From the NCBI GenBank assembly GCA_011033025.1, contig WFMF01000641.1, positions 1 through 64,000 on the forward strand: a stretch of DNA of 64,000 nt, read 5' to 3'. The notes beneath the pieces were generated by a model. The model ran no database searches. It was not told the DNA's origin and worked only from the letters and a program-made list of their open reading frames with translations. Both the position numbers and the translations under genes were made by a program. Below, piece after piece: positions 1-56,151 of this stretch (position 1 is the first letter of the stretch; every line of letters begins with the position of its first letter). The DNA comes from Beroe forskalii (taxonomy: Eukaryota; Ctenophora; Nuda; Beroida; Beroidae).

Positions 1-3000
1 ATCTGGATTTGTGACAGCCGTCACATAAAACACCATATTTAGTACCTCTCACATCTGAGCTTTGACTTCCTCCTGCTCCTACCTCTCCCACACACCTTCC
101 TAAGTAGAACACCCCGCGGAGACAGGGATCTGAGAATGACGTTTCCCATCTCACGGTACATATCTGATCACATACGGTATCTCACCGTGTTTCCTGCCGC
201 ACCCGCCCCCACTCCCCAGCTACTCTCTGCCGCACCCGCCCCCACTCCTCAGCTACTCTGCATTTAACCACCCTCTCTCTCCTCGACATGAGATTATAAC
301 GTACACAGTATAACTTTATGACGCGGGCTATATCCTGTACTCAACCACAGATTTAGCAACTACTACCATATCAGGTAGGAGTAGGGTGACGTGGGTAGAC
401 CATCCTTTTGCATTGTGCAACCGTCACACGCTTCATTTATATGCGTATTCCTGTGTCTGCGAATAGTTTTCTATACTCGACATTTTCTGCTGATCTTCTG
501 ATTTGTTTTCTATACTCGACGTTTTCTGCTGATCTTCTGATTTGTTTTTGCAATAGAGCTATTCAAGTGAGCAGTGTAGTAGTTGTTGCTGATATTTGTC
601 GGATTTGTGCAAAATACCACTCCATCAAAGCATCAGTGTTCTCCTTCACTTTCACAAAGATTCTTGATATACAGATAAAGAAAACCTGCCCGCCCGTTGC
701 TAGTTACACAACCTCCATCTGATGAAAAGACCCGGCCAGTATAAAGTTCTCTCTAGCCCTCTGCTACAAATTGACGCTTTCTCTTACTACTTGTCGCTGA
801 AATGTCGCTCCTACTCTTACAGGTTTAATATACCTACGAGCTTGTTATGAGCATCGTATGAGCATGATAATGAATACCTTTCTTCATTATTATTTTTCTC
901 CTATTAACTATAGAGGCATGGATTGATCAGAGTATCAGAGTACAGCACTGTACAGTATTGTGGTTAGTAGGTAAAAATACTCGGCCCGCAGTGAATTAGT
1001 AGATAGGTGCACGTTTTCTTGACCCTGCCCGCAAGTCATAATCTTCCTACTCTGAGCTGTGAAATTGACGCATTACAGATACCAGTAGACACACTAATAG
1101 AGCTAACAGTTGATATGCCTGGTGCTCTCCACTCGCCCATCTTTCATTGCACATTCTGTGACGAAGTCTGCAACGGGTATTATTCGCTTAATTTTATGCT
1201 TCTTTTTTAACGTGAAACGTCTCGCGCTTTGCTACCTTTTGTGTGACCTGATGACGTTGTTGGTGTCAATCAATGAACAACCTGTGATGCAAGGAATATT
1301 ACCTGCTGTTATCAACGGCTTATAAGCTTACCCAGAGGTCCATGCGACATTGGCCAATCTGCGCGCGAGTTGACCGTCAACTTGCGCAATGCGCATTGCA
1401 CAATGATATTGGTCATTGTCAGGACGATTTTAGGATCTTATTTTAAGGATACGCTGCCGTTTTAGGATACAATGAAAAATATTGCACGCAGGTCCTAAAT
1501 AGCGCTGATACACACACAGACGCACGAACACTTTGAATTATTAATATAGATTAGCAGCTGCAACTGCCACATTAACAGTCAAAACGCTTTTAACATCGGG
1601 AGAGAGAGAGGTGTTGTCTCTTTCTGTGAGATGTGTCACGTGATACTGTATAACACTTCTTGTGTGTAACTGTGTGTTTGTGTGTGTGTTTGTGAGTCTG
1701 TTAGTTTGTCTTCATATGAGACACATTTAACATATCTCATGTTGTGTGTTATTCGAGACATATTTAACATGTGTTATCTTACACAGATGGGAGTGTAAGG
1801 AAACACGTTCAATTAAACAACATAAGATTGTAAATGGCGGAAGTGTATGGGGCGTGGTTCTGACTTCCTACCAGCCCTCCAACTGTTGCACTACAGCAGT
1901 AATATGTTAAAGTAGGATAGGAAATCAGTAATATATGTTAAAGAAGTGCAGTAGGAACTTGTGGTGCTGCCTCTAACACCAGGCGTCGCCTTGTCTCCCT
2001 TCTTTCACGTATAATAAGTGTACAAGTGTCACTTCGTGTGTGAGTGAGCACTTCCAGTACTTACCCGTCCTTTATCACTTGTCTTAGTGCTCGTCTTTGG
2101 TCCCTGCCTCCGGAAACAAGTGTGGCCCAAGGCCCAAACTTAAAATTGCCTTGTTTTTTCTTCCTCAAACTGTAGCGCTTTCTAACCGCCCTTTTTGCTA
2201 CCCTGTCGCTGAGTTCCTCTTAACTGATGAACGCACATAGCATTCATGATCAGTTGACTAAATCGAACTACCTACATTTTATGCACAACCTATTGAATAT
2301 CTTTTCATTTTCCAAGCCTGAGGTAGATGCCCGTCCCACTGCAATATGTTGTTTAGAAACTGCTTAGCCCGAACTAAGAAGTACAGGAAATACTTACGGT
2401 AAGTATTAACTTGGCGTCAGTACTGATAACTACTGTTATTATAAAACCGAGGTGGTTTTGGTATTGTTTTGTCAATTCCAATCCTACCTGGTTTACCAGC
2501 ACGATATTTGAACAAGAGATCATCTGTTCTCTAGCTATCTATTGACTGTTCGGAAATGGTATCCAGCGGACTGCTGGTGTCAATTAATCAACTCTTCAAC
2601 TTGTGTCAAGCACTAGTCTAGAATCAACTGTCAAGCAATGAACAGTGAACTGGTGTCAAGCAAGCAGATGGTGTCAAGCAGCCATGATACTATCATGTTC
2701 TGAAGAACAAGCCGTTATCTTAGGAACAAATAAATCTGAGTGCTACTGAAGCCTCAGCGCACTATGAATCAGTTATCCCCAAGACTTTGGACTCCCTTAA
2801 GTCTTCAAATGAATGATGCACGACTTAAAGGTGCTAATTTTCGCAAATTTTGAGCCGTATTCACCGCTATTCATGCGCGGCGTTCGTTAACTGGTGATCA
2901 CACGTGAAACCTACGCGCCTCCACAAAGTTATGCGGATACGGTACAAGGAACTTTAATTAGCTGTTATTCATCTTCGTAACTTCTTATTTTGTTATTATG

Positions 3001-6000
3001 ACGGGGAGGGAAATTAAGCGCCCGCATACGGAAACAGTGAACAAGAATTTTGCCGTCAGGCACAATTCTTGTTTTAGAACAATTCTAATTTTATTGATCA
3101 ATATTCTTCGTTAATTTTTGTCTTTATCAGAATTTTAAGCCAATCAACTTTGACTAATGACTTCAAGGTTTTAAGTAGCAGTCAACAGTGTCTCGTATTG
3201 AGTCATGTATTTCTATTTATGGTATTTTATTTCGACTGCACTTGTAAAGGCTCGTTTGTTGCAGCCTCCTGATTTGGTACTAGTCACAGGGTGGTCCTAG
3301 TCTCCATTACATCACCCCAACGTGTAGCTCAGCATTTACCGGCTCATTTTAAGAGACTTGCTGATATGTCACTGTTTATATAACATCAACAATGTACCGA
3401 AAAGAGGCTTTTCAAGTTGCCAGTTCCGTTGTATGGTCTGAGAAGACAGAGAACCGATGGAATTTTATAAATCTAAATCGTTGATGATTTTACTTTGTCG
3501 ATGATTTCATTTGTAGCACAATACCGGTTTGTCCATTTCTTGAAAATGTAGACAATTAACAATGTATGTATATTGTATAGAATTTTTAATGTATATGGGA
3601 TGTATTTGATTCCAGAATATAATAAAAATTAAGAGGCTATAAATAAGGTTCATAAACTTAAGATTTTGCATTGGCGACTTAAAGTAGTTTTGCAGGCCTA
3701 AATATTGTCTTCCCTCAATATAAGCTGTAATAATTTAAGATTGATTTTTGTTGGTCTATTTGAGTGTGTGGTGAAAATGACAATTAAATAGGTGAGTGGA
3801 CCTGGTTTTCATTAACTGTTTTTGTTCATGAAATAATTGAAATTTCGCTGATTTATGCTAGTCAGACCATCGCTTATCCAAGTTTATAAGCAAATTACAG
3901 AAACATATAGATGAAAAAGAACAAAAAATGGCAGTTTCTGAGTAGATTAAATTTTTCAGAATCGTTCAAACGGGGAGAGTGCTTTTTAAGTGTACCTGGC
4001 CCTACTGCTATTTCTTTGAAAATTACTACCATTTTCACCCCCCTCATATACTGCATGGAGCAACCGTGTGTCTCACCATTGATCTGGTGATCTGGTCATG
4101 AAACAAACGTTCACGCCGTTATCACTGGAAATCATTACACTGATACCTACATTCTTGTGTGTATGATACTCTGTGTCACATTTCACGGACGACCACTGCC
4201 TTGCCCGAACAGGAGACAACTCTGAAAATGACATCATTGTAACGGTTCAAAGTGATAAGTTGTCCTGGTCAATCCTGCCATATATTTCTCCAGCCTGACG
4301 ACGTGGTGAACTCATCATGATTATCATTATGTAGTACCCATTATCTAATGCAATTAATTAGCAGCGACTGCAGATCAAAGGTCCTCCCTGCCGCTTCACG
4401 GGCAGTACCCCTCACGCAGCGCGATCTCTCCGGGTTGCTAATTAGCGGGTTTCTTTTACTGGCGCGCGGGTTTTTACGTAAAATACGCATACACTGGAGG
4501 TTGGCAAGCTGACAACATCTCTTGTCTGTCTTAGAACGTGATAATTACGTTATTTTCAAACGCCTGATGTTGGTAGATGACATTAAGTTCCCCAGCCCAT
4601 CACTCGCCCTGTGCAGCAGACAGAGTTACACTTTATTACATTGATGACGTCAGATCCTATTTTCAGCGGGAACACCCTTCCACACACACACAAAATGTAT
4701 TACATTTTGTTTTAGATCTCTGCAGAATGTTCTCGTTTTGTTAGCGATATACAACGAAACATATCGTCTTTGGTAAAGCGTCGTCATAGCCACGCCCTGA
4801 ACTCAGTAAATAATTGTATTTCAGTACTGTGCTAGTTGATATCCGAGCTGTATTTTAACTCGGATGATCTGAGAGTGTTTTCCGGGTGCTTTTCAATGTA
4901 CATTTCTGACAGGTAATGCTTCCACCATATGATTCGTATTGTATAGTATGTTGAGACAGATTTCATATCCCGCGATAAGAATGTACCTTATTACATCGAT
5001 TGAATACCATCTAGAACGATTGAATACCATCTAGAACGATTATGGCAATGATTTCCGGGTGTTCGCGATTCCCACGGCTCCCTTCGACCTCTCAATGGTG
5101 ATGTAAGGGATCCCTCACTCAAACACATTACCTACACTTAACGTTATGATCAAATACAACAGGTGACATCATTTGTTGTGGTTTGAATGGTAATTCAGAC
5201 TCTATTGTTGGCTGCTCGACATGACAATATGATATGTGAATGTAAGCTGAACTTCAAGGTAGATGAGGTAATGTATATGGAGGACTTTGTGATGATGAGC
5301 GTCACATCATATCCCATCCCTAATGGGTTGATGTTGAGGCCTGATGACAACACTACGTAAACACAGGGTAATGTACAAAGTACATTGTACATGCTGGATG
5401 TATTATGTACGTGTATAGTGTATAAAGTGTGTGGAAGATCCTTTAAAAAGTTTTGTGAAGTAGAGCCTTGTTGCGAGTAAGGATGGTGAGGTGATTCACT
5501 CCAGTCTTTTAGTAAATTACATCTAGATGCTGCGTGATGATTACCTCATCACGAGCATCTTGTTTTAATTTCATTACATTCCGAGATGTTTCATCATCTC
5601 GGTACTACATGATTCAACTCACAGACTGACATCTGGTGTAGGAAGGATTCCGGAATGTGTATATTAGCGTTCATATTAATGAGTCGGTAGTCGGTGTCAA
5701 CATGCCCATATTTTGCAAGATAATTAGGCCTAGTGAAGTCAATATAGCTGGTTGAAGCGTTTCATCACGGTATTTCGTAACTTATGAAATCTAGCATATA
5801 ATTCGAATCATGATCATATCTGAGATAGTAAACATTATTCCCGGTTACTTTTAAACACATTGTCATATCCGCATGATCATTGAATATTTATGTTTCACTG
5901 TCGATCTGTACGTAATTACACTCACTTACACTCGATGAGTAATGATGTTGTCATCGTGAAATTGTGTAACTTTATCATGAAATGGAGTACTGCGTTACCA

Positions 6001-6267
6001 ACCAACGTTTAAAACATAGGTCTTAGACGTTTAAAAATTATAATGTGTAAAATTTCCTTATCCAGCCGATATTTAACATTCACGAACACAATAGAACATT
6101 AAAATTTACGATCAATTGCCATCAGTTAATTCTACGGGTTATCAAATGGTCAGCATACATTGCGACAATCTGGAAGGAACGCTCAACCAAATTATCACAT
6201 TTCTCTTTTTCTGTGAAATCTAGCCAAATTACACTGGCCATTCCCCTTTTTGTGAGTGCCGTATCTT
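1..6267. other. Non-coding upstream region without a recognisable gene
   Basis: I see no convincing coding exon. Only short ORFs occur, without family resemblance or splice context. Small tandem duplications are visible: a C-rich ~40-bp unit twice near 195-265, a 41-bp unit twice at about 467-549, and a 20-bp unit twice at about 4999-5038. The first coding or 5'UTR exon of the tensin gene may lie here, because the first exon I can identify starts inside a codon, but I could not find it. Confidence 0.6.
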
Positions 6268-7122
6268 AAGCCGCTCTTTTCAGCTACATCTCGCCCCGGA
6301 TTATCCTAACCCTCTCTTTTCAGCAACATCTCGCCCCGGATTATCTTAACCCTCTCTTTTCAGCTACATCTCGCCCCAAATTATCTTAACCCTCTGTTTT
6401 CAGCTACATCTCGCCCCGGATTATCCTAACCCCCGCTTTTCAGCTACATCTCACCCGGATTATCTTAACCCTCTCTTTTCAGCTACATCTCGCCCCGGAT
6501 TATCCTAACCCGCTCTTTTCAGCTACATCTCGCCCCGGATTATCTTAACCCTCTCTTTTCAGCTACATCTCGCCCCGGATTATCTTAACCCTCTCTTTTC
6601 AGCTACATCTCGCCCCGGATTATCTTAACCCTCTCTTTTCAGCTACATCTCGCCCCGGATTATCTTAACCCTCTCTTTTCAGCTACATCTCGCCCCGGAT
6701 TATCCTAACCCTCTCTTTTCAGCTACATTTCACCCCGGATCATCTTAACCCTCTCTTTTCAGCTACATCTCGCCCCGGATTAGCCTAACCCTCTCTTTTC
6801 AGCTACATCTCGCCCCGGATTATCTTAACCCTCTCTTTTCAGCTACATCTCGCCCCGGATTATCCTAACCCTCTCTTTTCAGCTACATCTCGCCCCGGAT
6901 TATCTTAACCCTCTCTTTTCAGCTACATCTCGCCCCGGATTATCTTAACCCTCTCTTTCCAGCTACATCTCGCCCCGGATTATCTTTAATCCTCTCTTTC
7001 AGCTACATCTCGCCCCGGATTATCTTAACCCTCTCTTTCCAGCTACATCTCGCCCCGGATTATCCTAACCCTCTCTTTTCAGCTACATTTCGCCCTTGAT
7101 TATCCTAACCCTCTCTTTTCAG
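6268..7122 (+). repeat. 40-bp tandem array, 22 copies, built from the tensin 3' splice site
   Basis: The unit has four parts in order: a CTAAC/TTAAC branch-point-like motif, the tract CCTCTCTTTTCAG, then CTACATCTCGCCCC, then GGATTATC. The period is 40 bp from about 6281 to 7121. The 22nd copy is the true 3' splice site of the tensin exon at 7123, so the part after CAG in every copy duplicates the first 22 bases of coding sequence. Copies are nearly identical, with scattered point changes at about 6323, 6378 and 6730. The period is not a multiple of three, so using an upstream copy would change the reading frame. Confidence 0.93.
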
Positions 7123-7295
7123 CTACATCTCGCCCCGGATTATCGCCATGAGTTTCCCGGCCTCAGGGGGTTGAGTCCGCCTACCGGAACAAGCTTCACG
7201 ACGTGGCGGAGCTGCTGGAGTCCAAACACCGCGACAACTACCTGATCATCAACGTGAGCGACAGGAGCTACGATACCAGCCTCTTCAAGAACCAG
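7123..7295 (+). CDS. Tensin exon: start of the PTP domain, with a +1 frame break
   Basis: The exon starts after CTCTTTTCAG and reads [14 protein letters not shown], then, after the G5 run at 7166-7170, [20 protein letters not shown] and onward to SLFKNQ before a GTCAG donor. Read literally, the frame meets TGA at 7172-7174. Removing one G restores one frame through the exon and gives the correct phase for the next one. The start is phase 2 (one base completes the previous codon) and the end is phase 0. It matches the segment of vertebrate tensin from RIIAVSFP to about residue 70. Confidence 0.85.
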
Positions 7296-10200
7296 GTCAG
7301 TTGGTGAGCTTATAAAAGTCAAGAGATTGATATAGGAACCAGGTCAAGAACCAGGTCAGTTGGTGCTGATAAAGGTTAAGAGATTGAAGTTTAAACGATA
7401 TAAGAACCAGGTCAAGAACCAGGTCAGTTGTTGAGCTTATAAGAGATTATGTGCCATTTGGATGCATCATTTGAATCATACTGTAGGTTGTCTTCGTAAT
7501 TCGTCGTTTGAATGTCTGTATAACCTCAGGTGCTGGAGTTCGGGTGGCCGGATCACCACGCCCCACCCATGTCACTTCTCTGCCAGATTGTCAAGACCAT
7601 AGACTCCTGGCTGCGACAGGTACAGTCCCTCGCTGTGTGTTTTGTAATAATGTGGTCGGGTAATATTCCCGCGGAACGTATCAATTCAAGGAAAGCTGTG
7701 TATGCTGCGGGTGATAAGCTCTTCAGTCCTTCCATGACATCATTACCATGGTTTAGAATGGTCTACTGATAACATCGTCCGCTGTGGGCCTCTTTGCAGG
7801 ACGCGCAGTTCTCCCCTGTTTTCCCTGCTGTGACTTAGTGCATAGTCTGAAGGAAGGAAGCCTGTCAGCAGTTAATTTCACACTGAATTACTAACGTTTG
7901 TAGCCACGGGGGATGTGAAGTTAACACGATAATTACGTGTAATAAGAGATGAGCTCCACCTCTTCCACACCCACCTTCAGTACACATTGTGTACTTTAAC
8001 CTTTTACAAACAGAACTTTGCGTGTACAAGTACTTGATCCTCTCTCAACCCTTTCTGAGCTTATCTTCTGTGATGCGAACTATAAACCTTAGACGGCGGA
8101 CCCACTGAGACAATTCAATAAGCCAGATTGGCTCCTGGGTCCTGGCCTCCTGGACGAGGTCCCTGTCATTTGAACTATTCCACCTTTTCCTCACTTCCTC
8201 TCTTATCGTACCTCCGGACCTCCCCCGCCCTAAACCCTCTTTTCTCCAATCTCCACGCTTACCCCTCACTTCTCCACGCTAAAGCGCTAACCCCTCTCTT
8301 CTCCACGCCAACCCCCACTTCTCCACGCCAACCCCCACTTCTCCACGCCAACCCCCACTTCTCCACGCCAACCCCCACTTCTCCACGCCAACCCCCACTT
8401 CTCCGCCAACCCCCACTTCTGTCAACCCCCACGCTACCCCCCACTTCTCCACGCCAACCCCTCACTTCTCCACGCTAACCCCACTTCTTCACTCTAACCC
8501 CTCACGCTAACCCCCACTTCTCCACGCTACCCCCCCCACTTCTCCACGCCAACCCCCACTTCTCCACACCAACCCCCACTTCTCCACGCTAACCCCTCAC
8601 TTCTCCACGCTAACCCCCCACTTCTCAACGCTACTCTCCACGCCAACCCCCACTTCTCCATGCTAACCCCTCTCTTCTCCACGCTAACCCCTCTCTTCTC
8701 CACGCTAACCCCCCACTTCTCCACGCTACCCCCCCACTTCTCCACGCCAACCCCTCACTTCTTCACGCTAACCCCCACTTCTTTACGCTAACCCCTCACT
8801 TCTTCACGCTAACCCCTCACTTCTTTGCTGGTTTATCTTCTTGCTAACCCCACTTCTTCATAACCCTCACTTCTTCACTAACCCTCACCTCCACGCTAAC
8901 CCCTCACTTCTTCACGCTAACCCTCACTTCTTCACGCTAACCCCACTTCTTTACGCTAACTTCACTTCTTCACGCTAACCCCTCACTTCTTCACGCTAAC
9001 CACTTCTCCACGCTAACCCCTCACTTCTTCACGCTAACCCCCACTTCTTCACGCTAACCCCTCACTTCTTCACGCTAACCCCTCACTTCTCCACGCTAAC
9101 CCCTCACTTCTTCACGCTAACCCCCCACTTCTTCACGCTAACCCCTCACTTCTTCACGCTAACCCCTCACTTCTCCACGCTAACCCCTCACTTCTTCACG
9201 CTAACCCCACTTCTTCACGCTTTTAACCCCTCACTTCTCCACGCTAACCCCTCACTTCTTCACGCTAACCCTCACTTCTTCGCCCCACTTCTTTACGCTA
9301 ACCCCTCACTTCTCCACGCTAACCCCTCACTTCTCCACGCTAACCCCTCACTTCTTCACGCTAACCCCTCACTTCTTCACGCTAACCCCTCACTTCTTCA
9401 CGCTAACCCCTCACTCCTCCATACTTACCCCCACCCTCCGTCAGGACCCGCATCACGTGATAGTGTGTCACTGCAAGGGCGGCAAAGGCCGGACTGGCGT
9501 GGTTATCGCGGCCTACATCCAGTTCAGTAACCGCTACCTGACGGCGGAGGAGGCCCTGGGCAAGTTCGCAGACAAGCGCTTCTACGACGAGTCACTGGGC
9601 GGAGTGACGCAGCCCTCGCAACGCCGCATCGTGCACTACTTCAGCTCCCTGATCAAGAACGAGATCCAGCTGGAGAACCGGCAGGTGATCCTGAACACGG
9701 TCATTCTGTTCGGGTGCCCTCAGATAGATGGGAAGCATGGCGCTAAGATCTGCTTCTGCATCTACGAGGGCTTCAAGCTGATCCACACCACCAAAGTCTA
9801 CGGCGTGACACCTGACAGGGAACACGTGTACATCAGCCTCGACAACGTCAAGGTGCAATCCGACGTCATGATCAAAGCCTTCCACATCGGCAAAACGGGG
9901 AAAACCTGCATTCTCCGCACCCAATTCCACACTGCGTTCATCAAGGGGGACTACAACATGGTGTTCAGGAAGAAGGACATCGACATCGCGTGCAGGGACG
10001 ATCGCTTTCCCGAGGATGGGGTGTTGCAGGTCATCTTCAAACCGCAAGCCAGTGTCGTTACTGACAACAGTGACAGGATAGCACACACTGCCTTGGTTAC
10101 AGATCAGCAGGAAGCCAAGGAGATTGAGGAGATGACTAAGGAGATCTCCTGATGAGCTTTGACTCGGATTACGCTGATTTCTCCTCCTTTTTCTCGGACA

Positions 10201-12146
10201 ATCCTCTGAGTGAGACGAAGCAGAACGAGATGTTGGACGGTATCCTGACACTTCATGAGGATTACAAGCTCATCACTCCCCTCCTGCCGTTCCTTAACAG
10301 CCCACCCTCCCACACTTCGGACCAGGACAGTGGGAAGGGAGATAGTCCTCCCTGTGGGGCGCCACCCCCTCTCCCTCCCAAGGGGAAGACTAAAGACCGG
10401 GGCGAGTCCCCCTCCACCTCCAGCTGCTCCGTCTCTGAGAACGGTCCCCTCCTCCCTCCCCGTAAAGGCAAACCTCCCCCAGTGGAGAACCCCAACATCC
10501 TGACAAGTTACCTGGTGGAGAGCAAGGAGGAGGCGGACTACCTCTCCTTCGAGATCGCGACCCCTGTCAAGAACCTGGTGCAGCAGTTCGAGGGAGACGA
10601 GCAGCACCCCACCTTCACCAACTGGGTCCGCTTTGACGAAGACAAAGGACGGGATTGCGATGACCGGGACCCTCTCCTCGGGATCGCCTCGCCCCCACAA
10701 CTCGACGATAAGAGGAAGTGTGCTACTTTGGGCAGTGCTGTGAAGAGCAAGGTGTCAGTCACCCGGTCAGAGCCTGGCGAGGAGTCCGTAGTGAGACGGC
10801 GGGGCAGCACCCTGGAACGAGATCATGAGAGTGTGCGCAGGAAGACCAAGTCCATGGAGGTGAAGTCTAATAACGTGGAGATGGACAGGGGCAAGAAGAA
10901 GATGGAGAGGAAGTCCTGCTACATTCCTTACTTGCAGAGGAAGGAGTCCGTAAAGAAAGAGGACGGGGGCAAGAAGAGGTACGTTCCGTACAAGATGCGG
11001 ACCGACAGCTTCGGGACCAACTCTCGTTCTGGCTCGGAGAGTTCTATGGGCGTCCTCTCGCCCCCTCCCCTTCCCCCTCGCGGGGACAAGGCTGCTCCTG
11101 GTCCGAGTGGGCGCCTCCCCACTCCATCCACCCTGAAACCTGAACCCATGATGTCCGGAGAGTCAGGAGAGGCTCTGACTCTGCCACCCCGGCGCCTGGG
11201 CTCCCTTTCCAAGAGCATGGACAACCTACCATGCAGCAACCAGGTGTCCATGAACATGGAGGGTCCGGAGACCTCAAACCCTGACTCCGTGGAGTACAGC
11301 CTCAAGAACTGGGAGCGTGCTCAGAAGAGGAAGGTCATCCAGCAGACCAAGAAGATCTGGTTCCAGCCAGACATCAGCCGTCAGGAGTCTCAAGCCACCC
11401 TGGTCACCCAGTGCCCTGGTGCCTTCATCATTCGGAGAAGCCAGACACTCCACGACTCCTTCGGTTTGACAATAAGGCTAGAAGACGGGAAGAAACACGA
11501 GGACTTCAACCTCCATCCCGGGTCTCACAAAGTCAGCAACTTCCTCATCCAACGCAAGGACAACGGCAAGTTCTTCATCAACGGCTTCGGGAGCGTTGAC
11601 TTCACGAATCTGGAGGACCTGGTGGAGTACTTCACTAACCACACCGGGGGTCTGCCGCACCCGCTGTGTGTCCCCACACAGCCCTACGCAGACCGCATAG
11701 ACAAGGTGATCCCCATGCTCCTGCGTAACGTCTCCTTCCCCGTCTACATCTTGGAGAAACGCTGCATCCGCTACCTGCCTCTAGACAGCTTCGCGGAGGA
11801 TAACGTTAAGACCCTCCTCACAGAGACACTGTCTCAGCTGGAGGCAGAGGATGTCCGGCTGATCTCAATGTCCGTCACCAAACACGGCATCTCGCTGACG
11901 GACCCGGACTGCGTGCTCTTCGACACGTACAGCATCCCGTACAAGCAGATCAAGAACTGCGAGATAGGGTCACGTGACCAGGCGATCGCGCTCCCAAACA
12001 CTCAGACACTCAAGACAGCGCCGACCTTCGGGCTCATACACAGAGACAAGGAGGGCGAGATCATATACATCGCCCTGGCAGAGTACGAGGACAAGGGACT
12101 CTCAATCACCAAAACCATCAACAAGTTTAGATCTTATCTGGTGTGA
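7123..12146 (+). CDS. Tensin-like protein (PTP-C2-SH2-PTB), visible exons 7123-7295, 7530-7619, 9445-12146
   Basis: Tensins link integrin tails and actin at focal adhesions and recruit phosphotyrosine partners. The domain order here is the tensin order: PTEN-like phosphatase, C2, a long proline-rich linker, SH2, then C-terminal PTB. All visible junctions are GT-AG with matching phase. The first visible exon opens at the residues equivalent to YVTERIIAVSFP of vertebrate tensins, so only a short N-terminus is missing. The P-loop reads [10 protein letters not shown], with catalytic Cys and Arg present. Two single-base frame breaks interrupt the reading, at the G5 run 7166-7170 and near 10149-10152; with both healed the product is roughly 990 residues plus the N-terminus. 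Coding sequence is clearly GC-richer than its surroundings. A pseudogene is possible but unlikely, given 664 uninterrupted downstream codons with conserved domains. Confidence 0.9.
7296..7440 (+). repeat. Tandem copies of the tensin exon donor site
   Basis: The exon end AAGAACCAG|GTCAGTTGG (7287-7304) is repeated in the following intron at about 7346-7362 and 7407-7424. Each copy is followed by a diverged version of the same TGAGCTTATAA / AAGAGATTG text. The period is roughly 60 bp. All three copies keep CAG|GTCAG, so there are three candidate 5' splice sites in a row. Only the first leaves the frame in phase with the exon at 7530. Confidence 0.85.
7530..7619 (+). CDS. Tensin exon: middle of the PTP domain
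   Basis: Ninety bases, 30 codons, from [20 protein letters not shown] to SWLRQ, between TAACCTCAG and CAG|GTACAG. It matches tensin [20 protein letters not shown]. The WPD-loop residues W-P-D are present. Phase is 0 at both ends, so it joins directly to the P-loop exon at 9445. Confidence 0.93.
8251..9432 (+). repeat. ~21-bp pyrimidine-rich minisatellite in the tensin intron
   Basis: About 55 imperfect copies of a unit close to CACGCTAACCCCTCACTTCT fill most of the intron before the exon at 9445. Each unit holds GCTAAC, which resembles a branch point, and a pyrimidine run. The array stops a few bases before the real acceptor CACCCTCCGTCAG, so it may have grown from the branch point and polypyrimidine tract of that acceptor. 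The long ORFs across it on both strands are repeat artefacts. Confidence 0.9.
9445..10152 (+). CDS. Tensin exon, first part: P-loop and C2 domain
   Basis: This part starts after CTCCGTCAG with [20 protein letters not shown]; the catalytic-type Cys codon is at 9472-9474 and the Arg codon at 9490-9492. It continues with [19 protein letters not shown] and [14 protein letters not shown], which match tensin, then a C2 domain up to DDRFPEDG and a short acidic tail. Vertebrate tensin-1 has Asn in place of the catalytic Cys, so this protein keeps a residue that several relatives lost. The frame ends at TGA 10150-10152, overlapping the ATG that opens the next frame. Confidence 0.92.
   Translation, partial: DPHHVIVCHCKGGKGRTGVVIAAYIQFSNRYLTAEEALGKFADKRFYDESLGGVTQPSQRRIVHYFSSLIKNEIQLENRQVILNTVILFGCPQIDGKHGAKICFCIYEGFKLIHTTKVYGVTPDREHVYISLDNVKVQSDVMIKAFHIGKTGKTCILRTQFHTAFIKGDYNMVFRKKDIDIACRDDRFPEDGVLQVIFKPQASVVTDNSDRIAHTALVTDQQEAKEIEEMTKEIS
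10152..12146 (+). CDS. Tensin exon, second part: proline-rich linker, SH2 and PTB
   Basis: There are 664 codons in the frame beginning [14 protein letters not shown]. Residues 1-400 are low-complexity, rich in Pro, Ser and Lys, with class II SH3-ligand motifs PPPLPPK (71-77) and PPPLPPR (304-310). An SH2 domain covers about 402-507; its FLVR motif is FIIR at 425-428, keeping the phosphotyrosine-binding Arg. A PTB domain covers about 527-664 and ends close to the C-terminus, as in tensins. This frame is shifted relative to 9445-10152. One added C at TCC|TGATG would join the two as ..EISLMSFD.., so I read it as one exon with an indel. The alternative is true reinitiation at TGATG. Confidence 0.9.
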   Translation: MSFDSDYADFSSFFSDNPLSETKQNEMLDGILTLHEDYKLITPLLPFLNSPPSHTSDQDSGKGDSPPCGAPPPLPPKGKTKDRGESPSTSSCSVSENGPLLPPRKGKPPPVENPNILTSYLVESKEEADYLSFEIATPVKNLVQQFEGDEQHPTFTNWVRFDEDKGRDCDDRDPLLGIASPPQLDDKRKCATLGSAVKSKVSVTRSEPGEESVVRRRGSTLERDHESVRRKTKSMEVKSNNVEMDRGKKKMERKSCYIPYLQRKESVKKEDGGKKRYVPYKMRTDSFGTNSRSGSESSMGVLSPPPLPPRGDKAAPGPSGRLPTPSTLKPEPMMSGESGEALTLPPRRLGSLSKSMDNLPCSNQVSMNMEGPETSNPDSVEYSLKNWERAQKRKVIQQTKKIWFQPDISRQESQATLVTQCPGAFIIRRSQTLHDSFGLTIRLEDGKKHEDFNLHPGSHKVSNFLIQRKDNGKFFINGFGSVDFTNLEDLVEYFTNHTGGLPHPLCVPTQPYADRIDKVIPMLLRNVSFPVYILEKRCIRYLPLDSFAEDNVKTLLTETLSQLEAEDVRLISMSVTKHGISLTDPDCVLFDTYSIPYKQIKNCEIGSRDQAIALPNTQTLKTAPTFGLIHRDKEGEIIYIALAEYEDKGLSITKTINKFRSYLV

Positions 12147-25382: not shown

Positions 25383-28300
25383 CTGAGGAGATGTAATGGT
25401 GAATTTTCTGGTGACAGTAATTGCAAAAGTGAATTGTTGGTGAAATGTCTGATTTAAAAATGGGTTGGTTTTTCGTTATTTTCAGGAGCTCCAATTTGTT
25501 AAAGAATTAAAGAGTCAGGGCGGAGTGGTGTCAGGGTGAAGTGATGTCAAGGCAGAGTGGTGTCAAGGCGGAGTGGTGTCAGGACGGGATGGTGTCAGAG
25601 CGGAGTGGTGTTAGGGTGGAGTGGTGACAGGGTGGAGTGGTGTCAGGGCGGAGTGGTATCAGGCTGGAGTGGTGTCAGGGCAGAGTGGTGTCAGGGTGGA
25701 GTGCAGGAGTGGTGTCAGGGCGGAGTGGTGTCAGGACGGAGTGGTGTCAAGGTGTAGTGGTGTCAAGGTGAAGTGGTGTCAGGGTGAAGTTGTGTCAAGG
25801 CGGAGTGGTGTCAGGACGGAGTGGTGTCAGGGTGAAGTGGTGTCAAGATGGAGTGGTGTCAAGGTGGTGTGGTGTCAGGCCTGGAGCGGTGTCAGGGCGG
25901 AGTGGTGTCAGGGTACAGTGGTGTCAGGGCACAGTGGTGTCAGGGTGGAGTGGTGTCAAGGTGGAGTGGTGTCAAGGAAAGATGAAATTCACCACAGTAT
26001 TTCCTCCTCACCTGTAAGTCGAAGACCTCCTGAAGGAGAGGTAAAGCGTTGAAGTGGGTCTGAATGTGGTGCCGATCTTTCTTCTTCACGTTGAAATCTT
26101 TCAACCGTTGGGCTGGGTAGTTCTTCAATACCTGAAGAAAATGGAATGATTCAATGGAGTGGGAAGAAATTGCAATTTTTAAACCAAATCTGCTAAATCT
26201 TGGAGGGGGATTCGGGACCAAATCAAAACGTTCTCGAAACGATATTTAAATGAAAATTCTGCATGAAAACCCGTATGTATTTCAAGTTATATTATCAACC
26301 TGCGCGTAAGGCTGCATCCAGTGCCGACACGAGATCAGGTCCTCCCAGTTATACCCCGTCACCTCCTTCAACTTGTAGGGTACTACCAACCACAACGCAC
26401 TGGCAGCTATCATACTCGGTCTAAACTGTACCGATTGGACGTCGAGCGAGCACAGGTCTATCAGCTGAAAGGAGTTGATTTAGATTATAGAATGTGATTG
26501 GTTAACTAATTGATAAGTATTCGAGTTGTCGAGATTGAGATTTCAGCATCAATACGACATAACATATTGAATAGTATACAGTGCGATGAATTTGAGAAAC
26601 AGATAGGTTCCTGTGATTGGACAAAAGTTAAGCTGGAATACGATATTTTGATGCTCTCAGCAGATTTTCAATTTCACATTTTTTCCTCGAAACACTCATG
26701 AGTGCTCTCAACTAACCTGGATAATTTTGACGAAGTCTGACTAACCTGGATGATTTTAACGAAGTCTGACTGGGAGTACTCTGCCCTCATAAACTGCCCA
26801 GTTGTACAGGTTGAGCCTCTGAAATACTCAATCTGGAGGTAGAGGTTCAGCCACGTGTTTACTGTGAGCGCTGCTAACTTCCAGTCTAACACCTGTAGGG
26901 AGTGCTGTTAGCGTGGAGTGGTGTCAAGGCAGAGTGGTGTCAGTGTGGAGTGGTGTCAAGATAGAGTGGTGTCAGTGTGAAGTGATGTCAAGGTCAGCGC
27001 TGCTTACTTCCAATCTAACACCTGTAGGGGGTGGTGTCAGCGCGGAGTGGTGTCAAAGTAGAGTAGTGTCAAGGTAGAGTGGTGTCAAGGAAAGGTGATG
27101 TCAGGGTGGAGTCGTGTCAAGATGGAGTGGTGTCAGCGTGACGTGGTGTCAAGGTAGAGTGGTGTCAGTGTGACGTGGTGTCAAGATAGAAGGGTGCCAG
27201 TGTGGAATGGTGTCAAGATAAAGTGGTGTCAGGGAAGAGTGATGTCAAGGTCAGCACTGGTAACTCCCAGTCTAATTCCCAACATGTAGGAGGGGTGTCA
27301 GTGTTAAGTGGTGAATTCTTTAAGTAAAAAGTGTTGTCAGGGCGGAGTGAAGTCAGAATGAAGTGGCGTCAGGGTGGAGTGGTGTCGAGGTGAAGTGGTG
27401 TCAGAGTATAAGTAGAGTGGTGTTAATGTGGACTGGTGCCAGAGAAGAGTGGTGTCAATGTGGAGTGGTGTCAGAGTAAAGTGGTGTTAAAACCCACCCC
27501 CTACCTTCATCATGTCCAGTTCCATCTGCCACATATCCTCCTTAGAACAAGCACCGTTAGTCACCTCAGAGAACATGACGCAACTCGGCGGGTAGATTTC
27601 CTGAAAAGGAATTATTATTGTTAGTTTACTCAAAGGTGCATTTGGTATTAACCAATCCACATTCCACACATGAGTTCACTGATAACTCGCGCGCTAATTG
27701 GATGGCTTATTGGATGGCTAATTGGATGCAGGCTATATTTCCTGAAAGGGAAGCAATTATTACCACCCAGAATTCCTTTTGTCATTGACCAATCAGCGCT
27801 CGAGTTAAATGAAAACTCGTGCGCTGATTGGGTGGATGGAGATCCTTAAAGGGAGGATTGAAAGCTTCATCCATTGTAAGATTAATTACTGAGATGAATC
27901 TACTGGAAGGTTCTCTGCATGAGGAGGTGGGGTTGAAGGGGAAAAGCTTATGATATTACACATAAATAAAGCATTTGATCTTAATGTACTGGTTGACGAA
28001 GGACCTGTTATTTTCCTCAAACAGCTACTTCCATGATTATGAACCACATACTTCGGAGGCCCTAAAAAGATGTGAATATGCTTGAATATCAATTCACAAA
28101 GTATATACCGGTTAGCTGGGGGCTTCGATGTTTCAACAGAATACTTTATCTCATGGATATTTAGTCTCAAAAGGAGCAGTAAATAGAGCTATATAATCGT
28201 TGCATGTTGCCCTCTTTTTTTCCGCAATGGGAGGTCTCTGTCTTGCAATAATTTCAGGGAAGCTCTAAGGATCTTGCTCACATACAGAGTCACGCTCAAA

Positions 28301-31300: not shown

Positions 31301-34300
31301 AGTTGATAAAACTGAAAGTGGCCTCCTCCAAAACTTTTAGATTTTTCTTAAAAGTCGTACGTAATACTCCATCTTTCCTGTATCAGTCGCGTGCTCAACA
31401 CAACGGAAGACCTCACTTTGAGGTCAGCATTAGTAAGCATTTCACAATTCTGTAGTACATGTAAAATAAAAAGTTTAAAAACACTCTTTTCACACGTTCG
31501 CTGACCAGATGCTATCATATAACGCAGCAGTCGAAATTGTTTTGTGCTCAATTTACTTTTCGTCAGAAGGGTTATTTTTTATAAATTAGATCGATCTAAT
31601 AAAGAAATTTTATTTGTGCTGATAATCATTGCTGGTACAGTTTCACTTTTTCAATGAGGATGTCTTAGCGAAATAATTTAGATAGACACTCTGTATAGTA
31701 GACGGAAGGCAAAGCAAAGCTCCTCCAGTGCCCCCAACTCCCCAAAACACTGGATTTGAGACTATTCACGACCATATACTCACCAAAAATCCAGGACAGG
31801 GCACATTTACATCCTGCCATGCGCGCAGAGTTTTGAGCAATGTAGGAAAAGAGGGAGAGGTATAACAAATCAATACTTTTTCACTTTGAGAGCTTCGCCG
31901 AGACGAAGTCGAGGCTGTTGCACATCCCGAAAGTGTGGGGGCCCAGTGTGGTAGTTGCGCTTCATATGCAATCGAAGGAACCGAGAAATTTTGTTGAAAG
32001 CACCCGCGTAATTCATTATATGGAAAAATGATTTGAGGAGAGAATGTATAACAAATCCTTTGAGAATATCTCGATTTTTGGAGAGTAATTCATGATTTGA
32101 GCTCCTTTTAGAACGCATCCTCGAAATGGAGTAAATGGAGAGTAATTCATGATTTGAGCTCCTTCTTTGAGAATGCATCCTCGAAATGGAGTAAATGGAG
32201 AGTAATTCATGATTTGAGCTCCTTTGAGAATGCATCCTCGATTTATGGAGTAAATGGAGAGTAATTCATGATTTGAGCTCCTTTTAGAACGCATCCTCGA
32301 AATGGAGTAAATGGAGAGTAATTCATGATTTGAGCTCCTTCTTTGAGAATGTATCCTCGAAATGGAGTGTGACTTTTGAGAATGTATCCTCGAAATGGAG
32401 AGTAATTTATGATTTAGCTCCTTCTTTGAGAATGCATCCTCGAAATGGAGTAAATGGAGAGTAATTCATGATTTGAGCTGCTTCCTTGAGATGCATCCTC
32501 GAAATCTATCCTCCAAACGCATCCTCAAAAATTCAAAAGGCTCTTTTCATTGCATAACAATAGCAAGAAAACGTGATCTTTCGCGGCGAGACCATGATCT
32601 CAGTACTGAGTACAGCTCAACCATTAACCATTGAATAGGAGACTCACTGTCATAAATTTACCACTTTGAGCTATGATAATGACTCCAACAATACCGCATA
32701 GTATCATTTTGGACACAAAGTGTGAGCTGGTACGAAGTCCTTCACGACCTAAACCGAGCAATTTCACGGGGAGCAATACAGAGCATCCGAACAGGCTGCT
32801 TCGCGAAGGTGTGAATTAAGAATAGGTCCCACACTATCTTTTATTATGATGCTGCGAAATTCTGAGTAGTATTTTAATTGGTCATTATGAATATGATCAT
32901 GGTATTTCTTGTTGACCCACTAAGCAATAGGGGCTGAAAAGTCGCGTTTTGCTGTGGATTATTATTATTCATTAATATAGTTATTATGGCGAAGTCTAAG
33001 GCAACAAAGTGACTAATTTTGTTGCTTTGTACCTTGGCGCTTTGTAAGAGCTTGATTTAACAGGATAATGTATCCTTTCGCGGTTTGATTTAATATGCGA
33101 TTAACGATTTATCAGATTATTAACCCCCATAGTTTCATGTTCAGATCATGGTGGTGCTGCATGTACAACCATGGCCGACAGATGTTGATTCCAACCCCAC
33201 TTCACCCCCTCCTCCTCCTAACGCTCTCTCTGACCTCCCTCCGCCTAACATACCTGAGCATCCAATCCACACTCGATGAAAAGCCTCCTGGCATCATGCC
33301 AAATAATAAGCCTCCTCAGGCAAACTCAAACATGCCTCCACAATCCATGAGGCCACCTACTGCCAATCCCTCTACAGGAGCTGGAATTCTTTGGATTCCA
33401 GGATCTAGCCAGTGATTATTATCAGGTGGGTTCAGAAAAAAATGCTTTTCTGGAAGATTTTAAGATGACTTCTGTCTTGATTGGATGAAATAAGAGCTAC
33501 GGAAAATTGATAATTTAACTTGCAATCTGCCGTTGAAAATCTAAATCTTATCACACAAATTTTTCGGTTGAGGGGATTTACAAAAAAATAAAATGGTTCC
33601 AATCTTCCAGGTAATCCGAGTCCCTGGACGGCCCCGTTGGTGCCGTGCCATCTGGTTCATCGTCATCCTCTTCCTTTCCGGCTTCACTTTCTACATGGTC
33701 TATAGACTCCTCTACGCCTACTTCCAATACTCCTCCTACAATAAAGCCTCTGTGACATGGACAAACAATGTGACACTGCCTGCTATAACTATCTGTAATA
33801 TCAACCCGTTTAATTATTCCAGGTTTAGGGAGGTAGAGAATGGGTCGGGGAGGGTGGAGGACTTTGATACGATCATGGAAACGCTGATATTTGATAACGA
33901 GGATGCAAATGCGTGGGAGTTGATTGACAATTCCACGTGGGGTGATTTCTTGGCTTTTGAGCGGGAAAACGGGAGTTTGGCCCTCCGGTTTAGAGATTAT
34001 CTGATTAACACGATTTTCGGTTTCTACGACTACGAGTTTCAAGGCTTGGGCTACTACATCGATTTTAAAGACTATCATAAATTCAGTCAGATGACAGAAC
34101 TGGGTGTTTGCTTTGAGCTGAATGATAACGGATCTTTAAAGCAAAGTGCAGGTGGGGCGCGCGGTGGTCTTACAATCGATATGGATGCCAAACACGCTGA
34201 CTATCTCTTCTCCACACCAACCCAAGGCTTCAAGGTCTATATCAGGGATCAGGATGAAACTCTTATGTTAGACCACGGTGGCTACGTTGTATCCCCAGGG

Positions 34301-37300
34301 ACTGAAGTGTTTTTAAAAGTAACTGCTCAGGAAGTGAAGAGACTAGTGGAACCTCATGGGACATGTGAGGATAAAGCGAGCAGATTTGCGAAGTACGGTC
34401 TCCATTACGAGACAGTTAGGGAATGTGTTCAGAGGCAGAAGTTAGATGTTTTGATGGATAGGTGTGGGTGTGTGCCGTGGTATTTGGGTGATAGGTTGGT
34501 GACGCTCAACAAGACGGATATTCTGGATGAGTATATTGAGAGAATTGAGAGTTTGGAGGGGGATGATGAGAGGTTTGATATAGAGGGTGAGAGGAGAAAG
34601 AGGAACGTTAAAAATTATTCTCCATTTTATAAGCCTTGGGAAGATAGAGGAATATTTACGGATAGAAAAATGGATCATCAGAAGCTGAAGGAGAATTTGA
34701 AAGGAAAGAAACGGGTAGGAGAAGATAAAGAAGATGAAGGAGTTAATGAAGAGACAATGAGGAGATTTAAGAGAGATGAAGACAACGTAACAAGTACCCC
34801 GAGTCCATCTACCCCCACACCAGTTTACAAATCCTCCAAATATTCCCACCACATTTGCGGATACGTCGAACAGTATTACTGTCAGAGATCACTTGATACT
34901 CTCATCAGAGACGGAGATTTCACCTTCGAAGCCTGCCCGGAACCCTGCTTATACCACGAGTTTGAAGTGGAAACCTCCACCACGAAATTCCCGCCAACCC
35001 GCGAGTACTATGAGAGATTTATAAAGGAGCGGGTGTTTTTGTACTCGGGTTTACCATCGTATGAATACATCCAAGAAAACATGGCGAGACTGCATATTTA
35101 TTACGATGAACTGAAGGTCGAGAATGTGGAACAAACTAAAGCGTACGATGCCCAGAATTTCGTAGCGGAATTTGGTGGAGTCGTGGATTTGTTTATCGGG
35201 TTTTCTTTTTTCACGGTTTTTCAGCTGATAGAAATAAGTATAGCGTGGGTGATTAATAAGATAACGCCGAAGAAGAAGAGTAAGAATTCGTCGGAAAAGC
35301 CGCACAATGTGATGATGGAAGCTAATGGGCCAGGAACTATTATTGAGAATGAGGCAGCAGTGAAAATGAAGTATGATTTGGATGAAGATTTGTCAAATTC
35401 TTCGTTAACACCGCTGTGAATTGTGAAAAAGGAACTTATATGATTAAGGAATGTCCTAGAAGTAATTTCAACATAAATCCAAGATATATGATAATGAATC
35501 GAAAGAAAATTGCCCTGTTTTTGTGTTAAGCCAATAATCTTGCTAAAGCGACAGAAATGTGTACCGTTCATGATGACAAAATACATGAACCAGAGTTAGA
35601 TACAGATTATGTACGATCAATAATTTAATGAATTGATGCTTATATCTAAAACACAACCACTAGATTGTCTCTAGCCGTGTACTGCTCATATTGAATCTTG
35701 AATTAACAACTCCAGGTCCCTTTTTAAATGCCATGATTACAAGCTAAATTCGATTTATGCTATACCATGGCAGCCAAATAAAATGAACATAAGTTCATTC
35801 TGATGGTTAATAGGGAAAGGCAGACAAAGATCGTCTGAAGTCTGAATGAGAAGATTCTAGATCACCCTCCAAACTATATTTCAATCACAGATCGGGCTAT
35901 GGAATAACAACCAAATGGTTTGCCGCGTAAAATCTCAACTATTTTAACTTAATAGTGTTGAAATTATTCGAGATTGATAAGCATCATAATCGCGATAATA
36001 AGTGTTGAAATTTAAGGATGGGTATCGAGCGATCGAAAGTTTGCAACATAATCATTGTGTATATTGTATACACTGTAATGTATAAATTATACATCCAGGG
36101 TATTGTTTCAAGGGTATTGTTTCTAGAAATAGAAATATTTCATTTCAAGTAAATTTGGGAAATGGAATTTATTGCGTTCACTCAATGTCGAAATAGTTAT
36201 GGCGTGGAACGCGCGCGCGCGTTTGTGAAGAATCAAAATTTGATCAACTCGATTTTCGTGCTTTAAATTCGGTAATTCCTTATGACCAATTGTGAAGCAT
36301 AATGAAATCGTTCCTGATTTCCAAATAAATGACTAATTATTCAATTAATAGCAAAAAGTGGACCATTCGGTGGGTTCATTCATTCAATCAATTAATTCGA
36401 TTCGCGCCAATATTATTGCGAAATGCTCAAAAATCGTGCTCTACGCGCAACTTTAAAATTTGGCGTTCGCGCGCTACGTCAACGGGACAAAAGCCGTTGA
36501 TCTGCTGAATTATGTTCGCGCCAATTTCTGTAAAGCTACATTCTTATATATTTAGCATAGCCAGTGAGTTAACTAGTGCTGTGATAAATTCAAACGTGTA
36601 TAATATAGGAGATATGAGTACTTAAATCAATCACTGTAATGCGATAAAGGGTGATATACCTCCATTTAGTCAATCAATGGAAAATGGCTGAACGAAATAC
36701 AATACATATATCAGCATCTGGTAATAAATGCTATCATGTCACATTTCTTATAGGTGACTTAATTGCAAGAATGCATTATTACGTAACTTAATATGTACAT
36801 TTATGGGTTAAATGTGGACATAGCCTTATCTGACACAGAAGCATACTTACTGAAAATAACTTTATGGTTGAATGTACATGGAGTAAGAAGGCAGGATACA
36901 CATATGGTTGTTTCGGTCTATGGGTATAAATAGAAAGTACATTTTACATACCCAATGCCTTCCTTAGAGTGTATGATGGGCAAATAATGAACGTTGGGAA
37001 TGACAAAAGGGATTTTTGGCCATGTAAAATTAACCTAGGAGCAAATCATGGGTTTAAACAAAAATTACTGGCCAAAACTTGATAAGGGCGGGGCTAAAAA
37101 CCTAGGATCACGTAGGAACCATTGGAAGTCCTTGTAAGGGTCATCGGCACGAAAAAATTTAACATAATCAATGACGAAGTAATACGGAATCCTTCGTTTC
37201 CATAAACGGTTAGCACGGTTAGCAGTGCTAATGGGAGGAATTTTTTTGATACTGGGAGGATTTTGAAATTGCCAAAAATTAAAAAATTGTTTTAAAAATT

Positions 37301-40300
37301 TGCCAGAAAATTAACAATAAGTTACCTAACTAATACAGGTGTGAATGTTACTTCCATATTAGAACATGGGTAAGAAATTTAATTGTGCAATTTTTGTCTA
37401 CAAGTACAATTAAAAGTGAAAATCCTATCAAGGCTACAATTCAGTTTAAATTGTTTAAAATGGATGGCGTTTTGGGGCTTTGTTCTGCTCACTAGCTCAC
37501 TAGTTTTAATTTTCATCTCAGACATTTCTCATCATAAATTAGGTCAAATACTTTGGGATAAGACTTAAATAAGAGTCAAAATCTTATTGAGATGACAATT
37601 CTATTAGGTTGAAAACATTAGGCCGCCCCCAGATTACTGGATTTCAATATCATCTCTGTAAACATTTTTCATTTCAAATACGGCAGATGCTTTGAAATAA
37701 GACTATAAGAGTTAAAATCCTATTGATATGACAATTCTATTCGGTTAAAACGCCCCAGACCCCATGTTTACTGGATTTCATTCTCATCTTTGTGGAAATT
37801 CTTCATTTCAAAAAACGGGTTAAATACTTTGAAATTATTCAGAACTTTTGCATAAATATCCCCCTAATCAGAACTTTTAATAACCTATAAATGAGGGTGA
37901 AAATCCTATTGAGGTGAAAATTTAATCATTAGTATGTTGCAGCCCCAGACCCCTGCCTACTGGATTTCATTATCATCTCTGTAAACATTTTTTCCTTTCA
38001 AATACAGCCTACGGGGCTAAGCAAATGCTTTGAAATTAGACCGAAATAAGAGTTAAAAATCCCTATGGATATGACAATTCTATTCGGTTCAGACCCTGCT
38101 TACTGGATTTCATTCTCATCTTTGTGGAAATTCTTCATTTTAAAAACGGACTCAATACTTTAATACTTAAATGAGACTGAAAATCCTATTGAGGTGAAAA
38201 TTTAATATTATAAGCATCACCTGAATGGATTTATGCTTGTTTGAGATTCTAGACATTTTGCATTTGAAATACCCTGAAATTAGACGGAAGTATAAGTCCT
38301 GTTAGTTCTGAGGGGCTGCCTATTCCAAACAGAATTTCAATTATGGGATATTATGGGAGGAAAAACCTTTTTGGAAGGCAAGACGGAATCGCATAATTTA
38401 ACATGAACTTTATAACATGAATCTCCAGTAAAATTAGTAACTTCTGGATGTCGGTGGGTTTTTGATCCCGTAATTATTAGCACCCACTTCAAGTGGTAAA
38501 CGTCACTCCTAAAATTAGACCACATTACGTCATCATTTCACCATAGTAAACCCTGATAATGACGTCACTCTTAACCACCAATCACTTGCTAATCACGCTT
38601 CTTCTGGTGATTATGAGTTACAGGTGGTTGCATCGATATGTCATTATATATTTCTTAGTTTCCTAGCGATGATTCGCGCACTTGGAGCCAATGAGGCGAA
38701 ATGTTTCGAACATTTGTAATTATAACATCTGCGATACAATTTTGCTATTCCTCAGAATTTTAATTATATTATCATCCCATCGTGACAATAATTTGATTTA
38801 TTGCACTCGGCTACTCCTCGCAAAATGATTCCTTTTGTTGCGTCGATCTGTCACTGAACGAGGTCATATTTTCTCAATGTCCCTTTTGAAGACCTCAACT
38901 AGTGTATAAGTACAAAGATAGGGAAAATTTAATTCTATATTATTATCATATTTTGGACCAAAGTTTTCACTGCCCAATTCTTATGAAATATCACGAGATG
39001 TCCCAACATCTGTTTTTCTGGGTTTCTTTAAAACCAACCTCAACTTTAATCCAATGCAATAACTCATCCTTAACACTATCTAATCAATGATGCACTGAGT
39101 CCTCGGCCTCGGTATTTACCTAGGCTTAAAGTTTTACCGAAGCCTAGGTTACAAAAACTGCCCTCGGTCGATCAGTGTACTTAAAATAGAAGAAATGTGT
39201 TGCCCGAACTTCAGGCCATATTTCTTTTATTTGAAGTAGGCTTATATGAGTTGAAGATAAACATCCTTTTCCTCCCTAAATTGAAATTTCATCTTCGGTA
39301 CTCCGTATTTCATCTTACTTTGGTTTTTTTCAATTTTTGAGGTTAAAAAGTTACTCAACATAGGATTTGCATTTATGTCTCACGAACCATTTTACCAAAT
39401 TTGTCAAGAAAATTATAAAAAAGCATTCTCATTTAAATGATGCAATGCATCGAAAGCGTCAATTAAATGACAAATGTGCATTGAAATCAAGTTATTTCTG
39501 CACTGGTGGACGGCGGTAACGTAATTCTTTCAAAAGAGGTTTTTCCTCTCATTATCAGCATTTGAATTCTCCCATTTCTCAATTGTTATTTAGCTAAATT
39601 TATCAATAGGATTTTACCTTGATTTTAGTTTTATCAATGCTAAGAGTTAAAGGTATTTGACATAAAAATGTGACGCTTAGCGAATTTAAGTAAACATAAT
39701 ATCAAACTTCAAAAGATCATTGGGGTCTGGGGGCGGCAGCCCCCAGAATCCATACATAAGGATCAAATTGAATTGCTAACACAACAGGATTATTACCATC
39801 ATTCTATTCCAACTATATAACAGTTTGGTGTCACATAATAAACAATCAAAATCGCACTTTATCTTCGCTAAGTCCACGACAATTAGTTTATCAAATTTAC
39901 ACGAGAAGTGAAATTTGACGAGTGATGACCAAACCCTCCTACTACTAACACGCCTACCTTGATGAGTGATGGTCAGCCCTCCTACTCCTGCCAAACCTTC
40001 TTTGATGAATGATAACCAGCCCCTCCTTCTCCAACCACGCCTTCCATGACGAGTGATGACCAGCCCCTCCTACTCCTACCACGATTTCCTTGATGAGTGA
40101 TGACCAGTCACTTTTACTCCTACCACGCCTTCCTGGGCTGGTGATGACAAGTCGTTTTTACTCCTACCACGCCTTCCTTAACGAGTAATTACCAACCCCT
40201 CCTTCTCCTACCACGCCTTTCTTGACGAGTGATGATCAGCCCCTCCTAATCCTACCACGCCTTCCTTGACGAGCGATGACCAGCCCCTCCTACTGCTACC

Positions 40301-55490: not shown

Positions 55491-56151
55491 ACTCATCATT
55501 CTACCGAATGAATACTACTAGCGTATGTAAAAATCTTCCATTATCATTATTCATTCTAAGATGTTTACACAAGCTGTTCCACACTCCACAGCCACAGTTC
55601 ATAGCAGGCCGTCATGCTGACTGCAATTTGTACCTTCATGTAACTTGATATTCCTCTGGAGTTATTAAACTTGCAATAAGTGATATGTGTGTACGGTGAA
55701 AATTCAATATTCAGTGCTTTCATTTAAATTGAAATTACCTTATAAGCTTGTTCTCTTTTTATTCATTGATGTTTGGGTATGTTGTGAACACTGCTGTTGT
55801 CTGAGGCACTGCTGTGTTACTGTAATATTACAACCCTTTGTGACCCTTCATTCTCTATGTATGTTATGATCTCTATCATATATTTGCAAACAAATATATC
55901 ATATAAAATTATGAATATAGGAAATGCCTTATTATAGGCAAATAAATCAGGTTATTTGGGACTATAATTCTAACCAGTAACCAGTATCTTGGACTGAAGT
56001 TCTTCAAGATTTCAAGGGTTCTATGGACTGAAATATACACTAAAATCCATTGAACTGCAAATCTGACGTTTAAAGGTTTAAACTATAATCATCTTAAATA
56101 GCTTTATTTTCTATAGCAAAGTACAACCAGATATCATAGGAGAATCAGCAG

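Follow-up and report, generated by a model that had tools for sequence, protein, structure and literature searches.

A minisatellite built of 22 copies of a 3' splice site and the start of its exon in a tensin-like gene

Which 3' splice site is used when a single intron ends in many almost equal ones? The question is raised by a stretch of 64,000 nucleotides (hereafter the window), in which a 40-bp unit spanning an intron-exon boundary is repeated in tandem, so that the array forms a natural competition among 22 almost equal acceptors in one intron. RNA from the host animal would reveal the deciding factor, either proximity across the intron or proximity across the exon. Repeats occur at three splice boundaries of this one gene. 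The array and the exons that follow it are these:

6262..7144, + strand: minisatellite, 22 copies of a 40-bp unit (TRF, CAG-anchored script, mismatch search)
7105..7122, + strand: acceptor half of the last copy, CTAACCCTCTCTTTTCAG, which alone runs directly into the exon (CAG-anchored script, unit alignment)
7123..7295, + strand: exon A, start of a PTEN/auxilin-like segment (...LFKNQ), with a single frame change after 7160 (phmmer, frame reading)
7530..7619, + strand: exon B (...SWLRQ), 90 nt (ORF list, phmmer)
9445..10152, + strand: exon C in its first frame, with a phosphatase signature and PTEN_C2 (ORF list, Pfam)
10140..12146, + strand: continuation in another frame, with an SH2 domain and the C-terminus, 668 aa from stop to stop (ORF list, Pfam, PDB search)

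The acceptor array and the gene that carries it

TRF, run on the array, returned positions 6262-7144 with a period of 40, 22.1 copies, a score of 1547 and 93% matches, and a script anchored on CAG followed by C[T/A]ACAT placed 22 acceptors, whose first exon bases run from 6284 to 7123. Both results confirm the 22-copy, 40-bp array of the original prediction. The unit consists of 18 nt of intron end (YTAAC, a pyrimidine tract and CAG) and the first 22 nt of the exon (YTAACCCTCTCTTTTCAG + CTACATCTCGCCCCGGATTATC), and is thus a full 3' splice site joined to an exon start, as had been proposed. The length of 40 bp ascribed to each unit holds for 20 of the 21 units that are bounded by a next copy, and fails for copy 5, which has 39 nt. 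The branch-point-like CTAAC or TTAAC that every unit was said to contain is likewise general, with two exceptions: copy 1 has TTAAG, and copy 19 has TTTAAT, in place of TTAAC. CAG is intact in all 22 copies, and the distance from the branch-like A to the G of the AG is 14 nt. Exon sequence continues after copy 22 only, in agreement with the earlier claim that the last copy alone runs into the exon. Recursive splicing was considered and rejected, since the base after CAG is C in 22 of 22 units and none has GT there.

The 18-nt acceptor half, searched for with up to 3 mismatches, had 21 matches in the window, all within the array (mean expected number 0.12; 21 was reached in 0 of 100 shuffles). 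The copy that this search left unmatched is copy 19, whose acceptor half is shifted. The commonest unit type is shared by seven identical copies of the 22 and the second type by three, and many copies carry private differences. Such differences are not expected from a simple assembly loop, and they argue against the view that the copy number, or the whole array, is an assembly artefact. Repeats are error-prone, and reports on lancelets contain parallels: the copy number of a repeat in PGBD5 differs between two genome versions (PMC3902484), and a globin 'mirage', a tandem repeat of an intron-exon boundary, appears misassembled in its draft version (PMC3087553). We nevertheless regard an artefact as extremely improbable here.

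The exons downstream of the array were used to identify the gene. The 87-aa product of exons A and B, read across the frame change, matched PTEN (8.9e-18, residues 1-86 of 87) and auxilin (1.8e-16) when compared with PDB by phmmer; of the 14 PDB sequences that passed E 0.001, not one bears the name tensin. Pfam returned no match for this 87-aa product at E 0.001. Further downstream, Pfam matched PTEN_C2 (5.7e-19) in the exon from 9445 and SH2 (1.4e-10) in the ORF from 10140. The SH2 ORF matched 105 PDB sequences, of which the best among the 60 listed were Src SH2 domains (7.7e-08); a tensin-like C1 domain-containing phosphatase (1.8e-06) was also among the listed matches. The C-terminal 165 aa matched nothing in Pfam at E 1, PTB included.

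Tensins possess a PTEN-like phosphatase, a C2 and an SH2 domain in that order, and are defined by a PTP-like domain, C2, SH2 and PTB in one gene. Because the phosphatase part, C2 and SH2 predicted here follow one another in tensin order, it is reasonable to call the gene tensin-like. Its exon A resembles PTEN and auxilin and its later exons would encode PTEN_C2 and SH2, which makes the original label of a tensin exon fair, though not proven. The phosphatase loop predicted from the ORF translation at 9469-9498 keeps the cysteine and the arginine of active phosphatases; vertebrate tensin 1 is not known to possess the phosphatase-loop cysteine. A narrow pattern (Asp, a Leu/Ile/Met/Phe-type codon, two bases and a donor, with at least 8 open codons) found no upstream exon in 1-6300, and neither a tRNA scan nor Rfam at gathering scores found a match.

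A spacing of 14 nt between branch A and AG would suit a minor (U12-type) intron, and this spacing, together with CTTAAC in many copies, would let the array suit that intron class as well. One of the introns of human PTEN is of the minor class (PMC3728624). A U12-type donor pattern had 11 matches in the window, 0 of them on the + strand upstream of the array, and a related ATATCCTG at 330, outside the pattern, was seen by eye; no exon was recognised there. The minor intron of PTEN is located near the position corresponding to the array.

Reading frames and the choice of acceptor

The number of nucleotides carried over from the upstream exon was deduced from homology as 2, the phase that gives the PTEN/auxilin-like reading of exon A. 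With 2 nt carried, copy 22 alone is open and in the right frame to 7160; of the 21 upstream copies, copy 21 gets there in another frame and the other 20 are closed by an earlier stop. A carry of 0 nt closes 21 of the 22 copies ahead of 7160, and a carry of 1 nt closes all 22. Judged by these translations, the upstream copies would be non-productive in the required phase. Because they lead to a stop (20) or to the wrong frame (copy 21), the 'many isoforms' that had been suggested as one outcome would not amount to full-length versions of the protein.

In the sequence as it stands, each of the 22 copies, whichever of the three phases is taken, runs into a stop in the array or in exon A. For copy 22 in the 2-nt phase the stop lies at 7172, owing to the frame change after 7160. 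A second frame change falls at 10140-10152, where two long ORFs overlap, one with the C2 part and one with the SH2 part. Each of these changes is either a sequence error or the mark of a damaged allele. In the second case the array may have broken the gene, or may sit on a decayed allele, with upstream acceptors capturing splicing and the tensin frame lost. The two coding frame changes (after 7160 and near 10140-10152) are consistent with this, as is the fact that no copy gives an open exon in the present sequence. However, both the 668-aa ORF and that of the phosphatase/C2 part are long, with recognisable domains, and sequencing errors often produce frame changes like these. An overall upstream bias of 3' site choice, reported from human data (PMC9225289), would favour capture by the upstream copies. 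On balance we consider a broken gene unlikely.

The same human genome-wide data bear on the choice in more than one way: the upstream of two 3' sites is favoured overall, this bias is reduced under exon definition, and the authors conclude that preference then goes to the 3' sites nearest across the exon (PMC9225289). Measured to the next donor, the exon is 173 nt long if the last acceptor is used and 213 to 1012 nt long with the other 21. The last copy is most likely the one used, because no other gives an exon of normal size whose donor lies close by on the far side, and because a junction at any other copy would lead to a stop or to the wrong frame. A probably long upstream intron, the 173-nt exon, the frame argument and the published accounts of mirages all point to the last copy. 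We therefore envisage a transcript that would be spliced to copy 22, while any transcripts joined to copies 1-21 would be removed by nonsense-mediated decay.

Origin of the array and repeats at the other splice boundaries

Three further features bear on how the array arose and on its setting in the gene:

6262..6265, + strand: left edge TATC, identical to the last four bases of copy 22 (7141-7144), a 4-bp direct repeat (edge comparison)
7296..7433, + strand: repeated donor side of exon A, AACCAG/GTCA, with GT at 7296, 7343, 7355, 7411 and 7423
8230..9434, + strand: second array, stopping 10 nt short of exon C (TRF, motif count)

The identity of TATC at the two array edges stops there, with neither the preceding nor the following base shared. 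Its presence at both edges fits a first duplication between short direct repeats, followed by expansion. One TATC would have lain in the intron end and the other would have ended 22 nt into the exon, such that the first 40-bp tandem duplication between them copied the whole acceptor; later slippage or unequal exchange could then have produced 22 copies.

To describe divergence among the copies we used 20 of the 22, omitting copies 5 and 19 as out of register. The mean difference between copies was 2.04 of 40 positions. Adjacent copies of these 20 resembled each other no more than in shuffled orders (in 2900 of 5000 shuffles the value equalled or fell below that observed), and no local copying history is therefore visible. 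Copies 12 and 21 have diverged further (4 differences each) than copy 1 (2). With the Y position omitted, changes affected 6 of 340 cells in the intron part and 10 of 440 in the exon part (Fisher P 0.80), and CAG was unchanged, with a probability of 0.29 for no change under a uniform rate. Across the 20 copies, intron versus exon change rates and CAG intactness thus gave no signal of selection for or against acceptors.

These rates bear on whether the array could act as a regulatory sink, in which the productive acceptor faces competition from 21 poison ones and copy number, together with the level of splicing factors, sets tensin output through nonsense-mediated decay. All 21 upstream copies are predicted to be non-productive in the required phase and CAG is kept in 22 of 22, as a sink would need. 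In the human ABCA7 repeat, moreover, splicing at a different unit yields a frameshifted transcript at about 2%, and with longer arrays expression is lower and exon 19 is skipped more often (PMC5954066). However, retention of a single unit in ABCA7 is described as independent of VNTR size (PMC5954066), the mirages studied to date are reported as silent (PMC3087553, PMC3902484), the intact CAG is expected from a uniform low rate of change (P 0.29 in the 20 copies) and the intron and exon parts changed at like rates (6/340 versus 10/440, Fisher P 0.80). A sink of this kind seems to us rather improbable.

Exon A ends at 7295, before GTCAGT, and its donor side is itself repeated; GTCAGT is present in 3 of the 5 repeats. 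Reading past the end of exon A gives GTC AGT TGG TGA, a stop. The second array terminates the intron between exons B and C. TRF reported it at 8285-9434, with a period of 21, 57.7 copies and the consensus CGCTAACCCCCACTTCTCCA, and the 1212 nt from 8230 to 9441 contain 38 CTAAC and 11 CCAAC. The sequence is AG-free from after 8283-8284 until the acceptor AG at 9443-9444, which leaves a very long run, 1.16 kb, without AG ahead of that acceptor. By its motifs, the second array appears to multiply branch-point-like and pyrimidine sequence without AG, a property that follows from the unit itself. Repeats are thus seen at 3 of the 5 intron ends in the gene, two of them made of splice-site sequence and one stopping 10 nt before its exon. 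The unusual points of this locus are the copy number, the repeated donor on the same exon and the AG-free array that ends the next intron but one. It is conceivable, if very improbable, that they work together as a rheostat, with copy number of the 21 poison acceptors setting tensin output, varying between individuals or tissues, and backed by the repeated donors on exon A and the AG-free array before a later exon.

The account that we think probable is as follows. The array would be a mirage-type minisatellite that was duplicated between TATC repeats and then expanded, with the last acceptor used and the products of the others decayed.

Other repeats and ORFs lie elsewhere in the window. A 16-bp unit, GTCAGGGTGGAGTGGT, forms arrays at 25514-27490 together with longer variants; on the minus strand this unit reads as CTGAC plus a pyrimidine-rich stretch. 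TRF also found a 44-bp minisatellite of 19.2 copies at 39915-40758. Uninterrupted ORFs encode a protein of the amiloride-sensitive sodium channel family (33572-35419, 615 aa) and a rhodopsin-family receptor (45872-46954, 360 aa). Two further ORFs, 56140-57549 (469 aa) and 60649-63618 (989 aa), look related by eye; the 989-aa ORF has two MYND and two PRiA4_ORF3-like stretches, and the only match of the 469-aa ORF is PRiA4_ORF3, below the curated cut-off.

Comparison with known boundary repeats

According to the original prediction, no named system of this kind was known. That was mistaken: tandem repeats of intron-exon boundaries, acceptor side included, are known in amphioxus as 'mirages' (PMC3087553, PMC3902484). 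The name was given for Adh3, and the globin gene BflGb6 has a minisatellite-like tandem duplication of an intron 3' end and the 5' part of the exon, while BflGb9 has a tandemly duplicated 3' exon boundary (PMC3087553). Troponin C and PGBD5 are also counted as mirages (PMC3902484). Many of the units, not all, bear AG/GT signals usable as cryptic sites; data on Adh3 and RT-PCR on globins suggest regular splicing of mirage genes (PMC3087553), and the Adh and troponin C mirages are stated to yield no aberrant mRNAs (PMC3902484).

The present array resembles these in that its unit spans the intron-exon boundary (18 nt of intron and 22 nt of exon), in the BflGb6 arrangement of intron 3' end plus exon 5' part (PMC3087553). 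As in the mirages described, its units hold splice signals (CAG in 22 of 22, GTCAGT in 3 of 5 donor-side repeats), and either end of an exon may be affected, here both the acceptor and donor sides of exon A. The 22 copies of 40 bp compare with 3 and 6 copies of 150-160 bp in two BflGb6 haplotypes (PMC3087553) and with 2-7 copies of 60 or 108 bp in PGBD5 (PMC3902484); the 40-bp length compares with Adh3 units of 10-72 bp (PMC3087553). Mirages are characterised as varying in length among haplotypes and somatically, and as homogenised inside with the edges excluded; here 7 of 22 copies are identical, yet copy 1, at the edge, is less diverged than copies 12 and 21. Unlike the mirages as those reports present them, this gene has repeats at the acceptor as well as the donor of a single exon, and again in the acceptor region of an intron further on.

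Two human repeats are parallels on the donor side. In the IFI6 (6-16) minisatellite the repeat units act as splice sites, as the units here may do; they differ in being donor sites, and use of two downstream units results in three mRNAs (PMC4526556, citing Turri 1995). The ABCA7 intron 18 VNTR has a 25-bp unit, the first two bases of which form the exon's donor, and 23.7 copies in the reference (PMC5954066). There too the use of another unit shifts the frame; it differs in lying on the donor side, and both exon 19 skipping and expression are tied to its length (PMC5954066).

Together, these comparisons indicate that the feature is real and of a kind already named, unusual in its copy number and in its three splice boundaries, and that the likeness is one of build. 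If the animal is not a lancelet, the acceptor-side mirage extends beyond cephalochordates.
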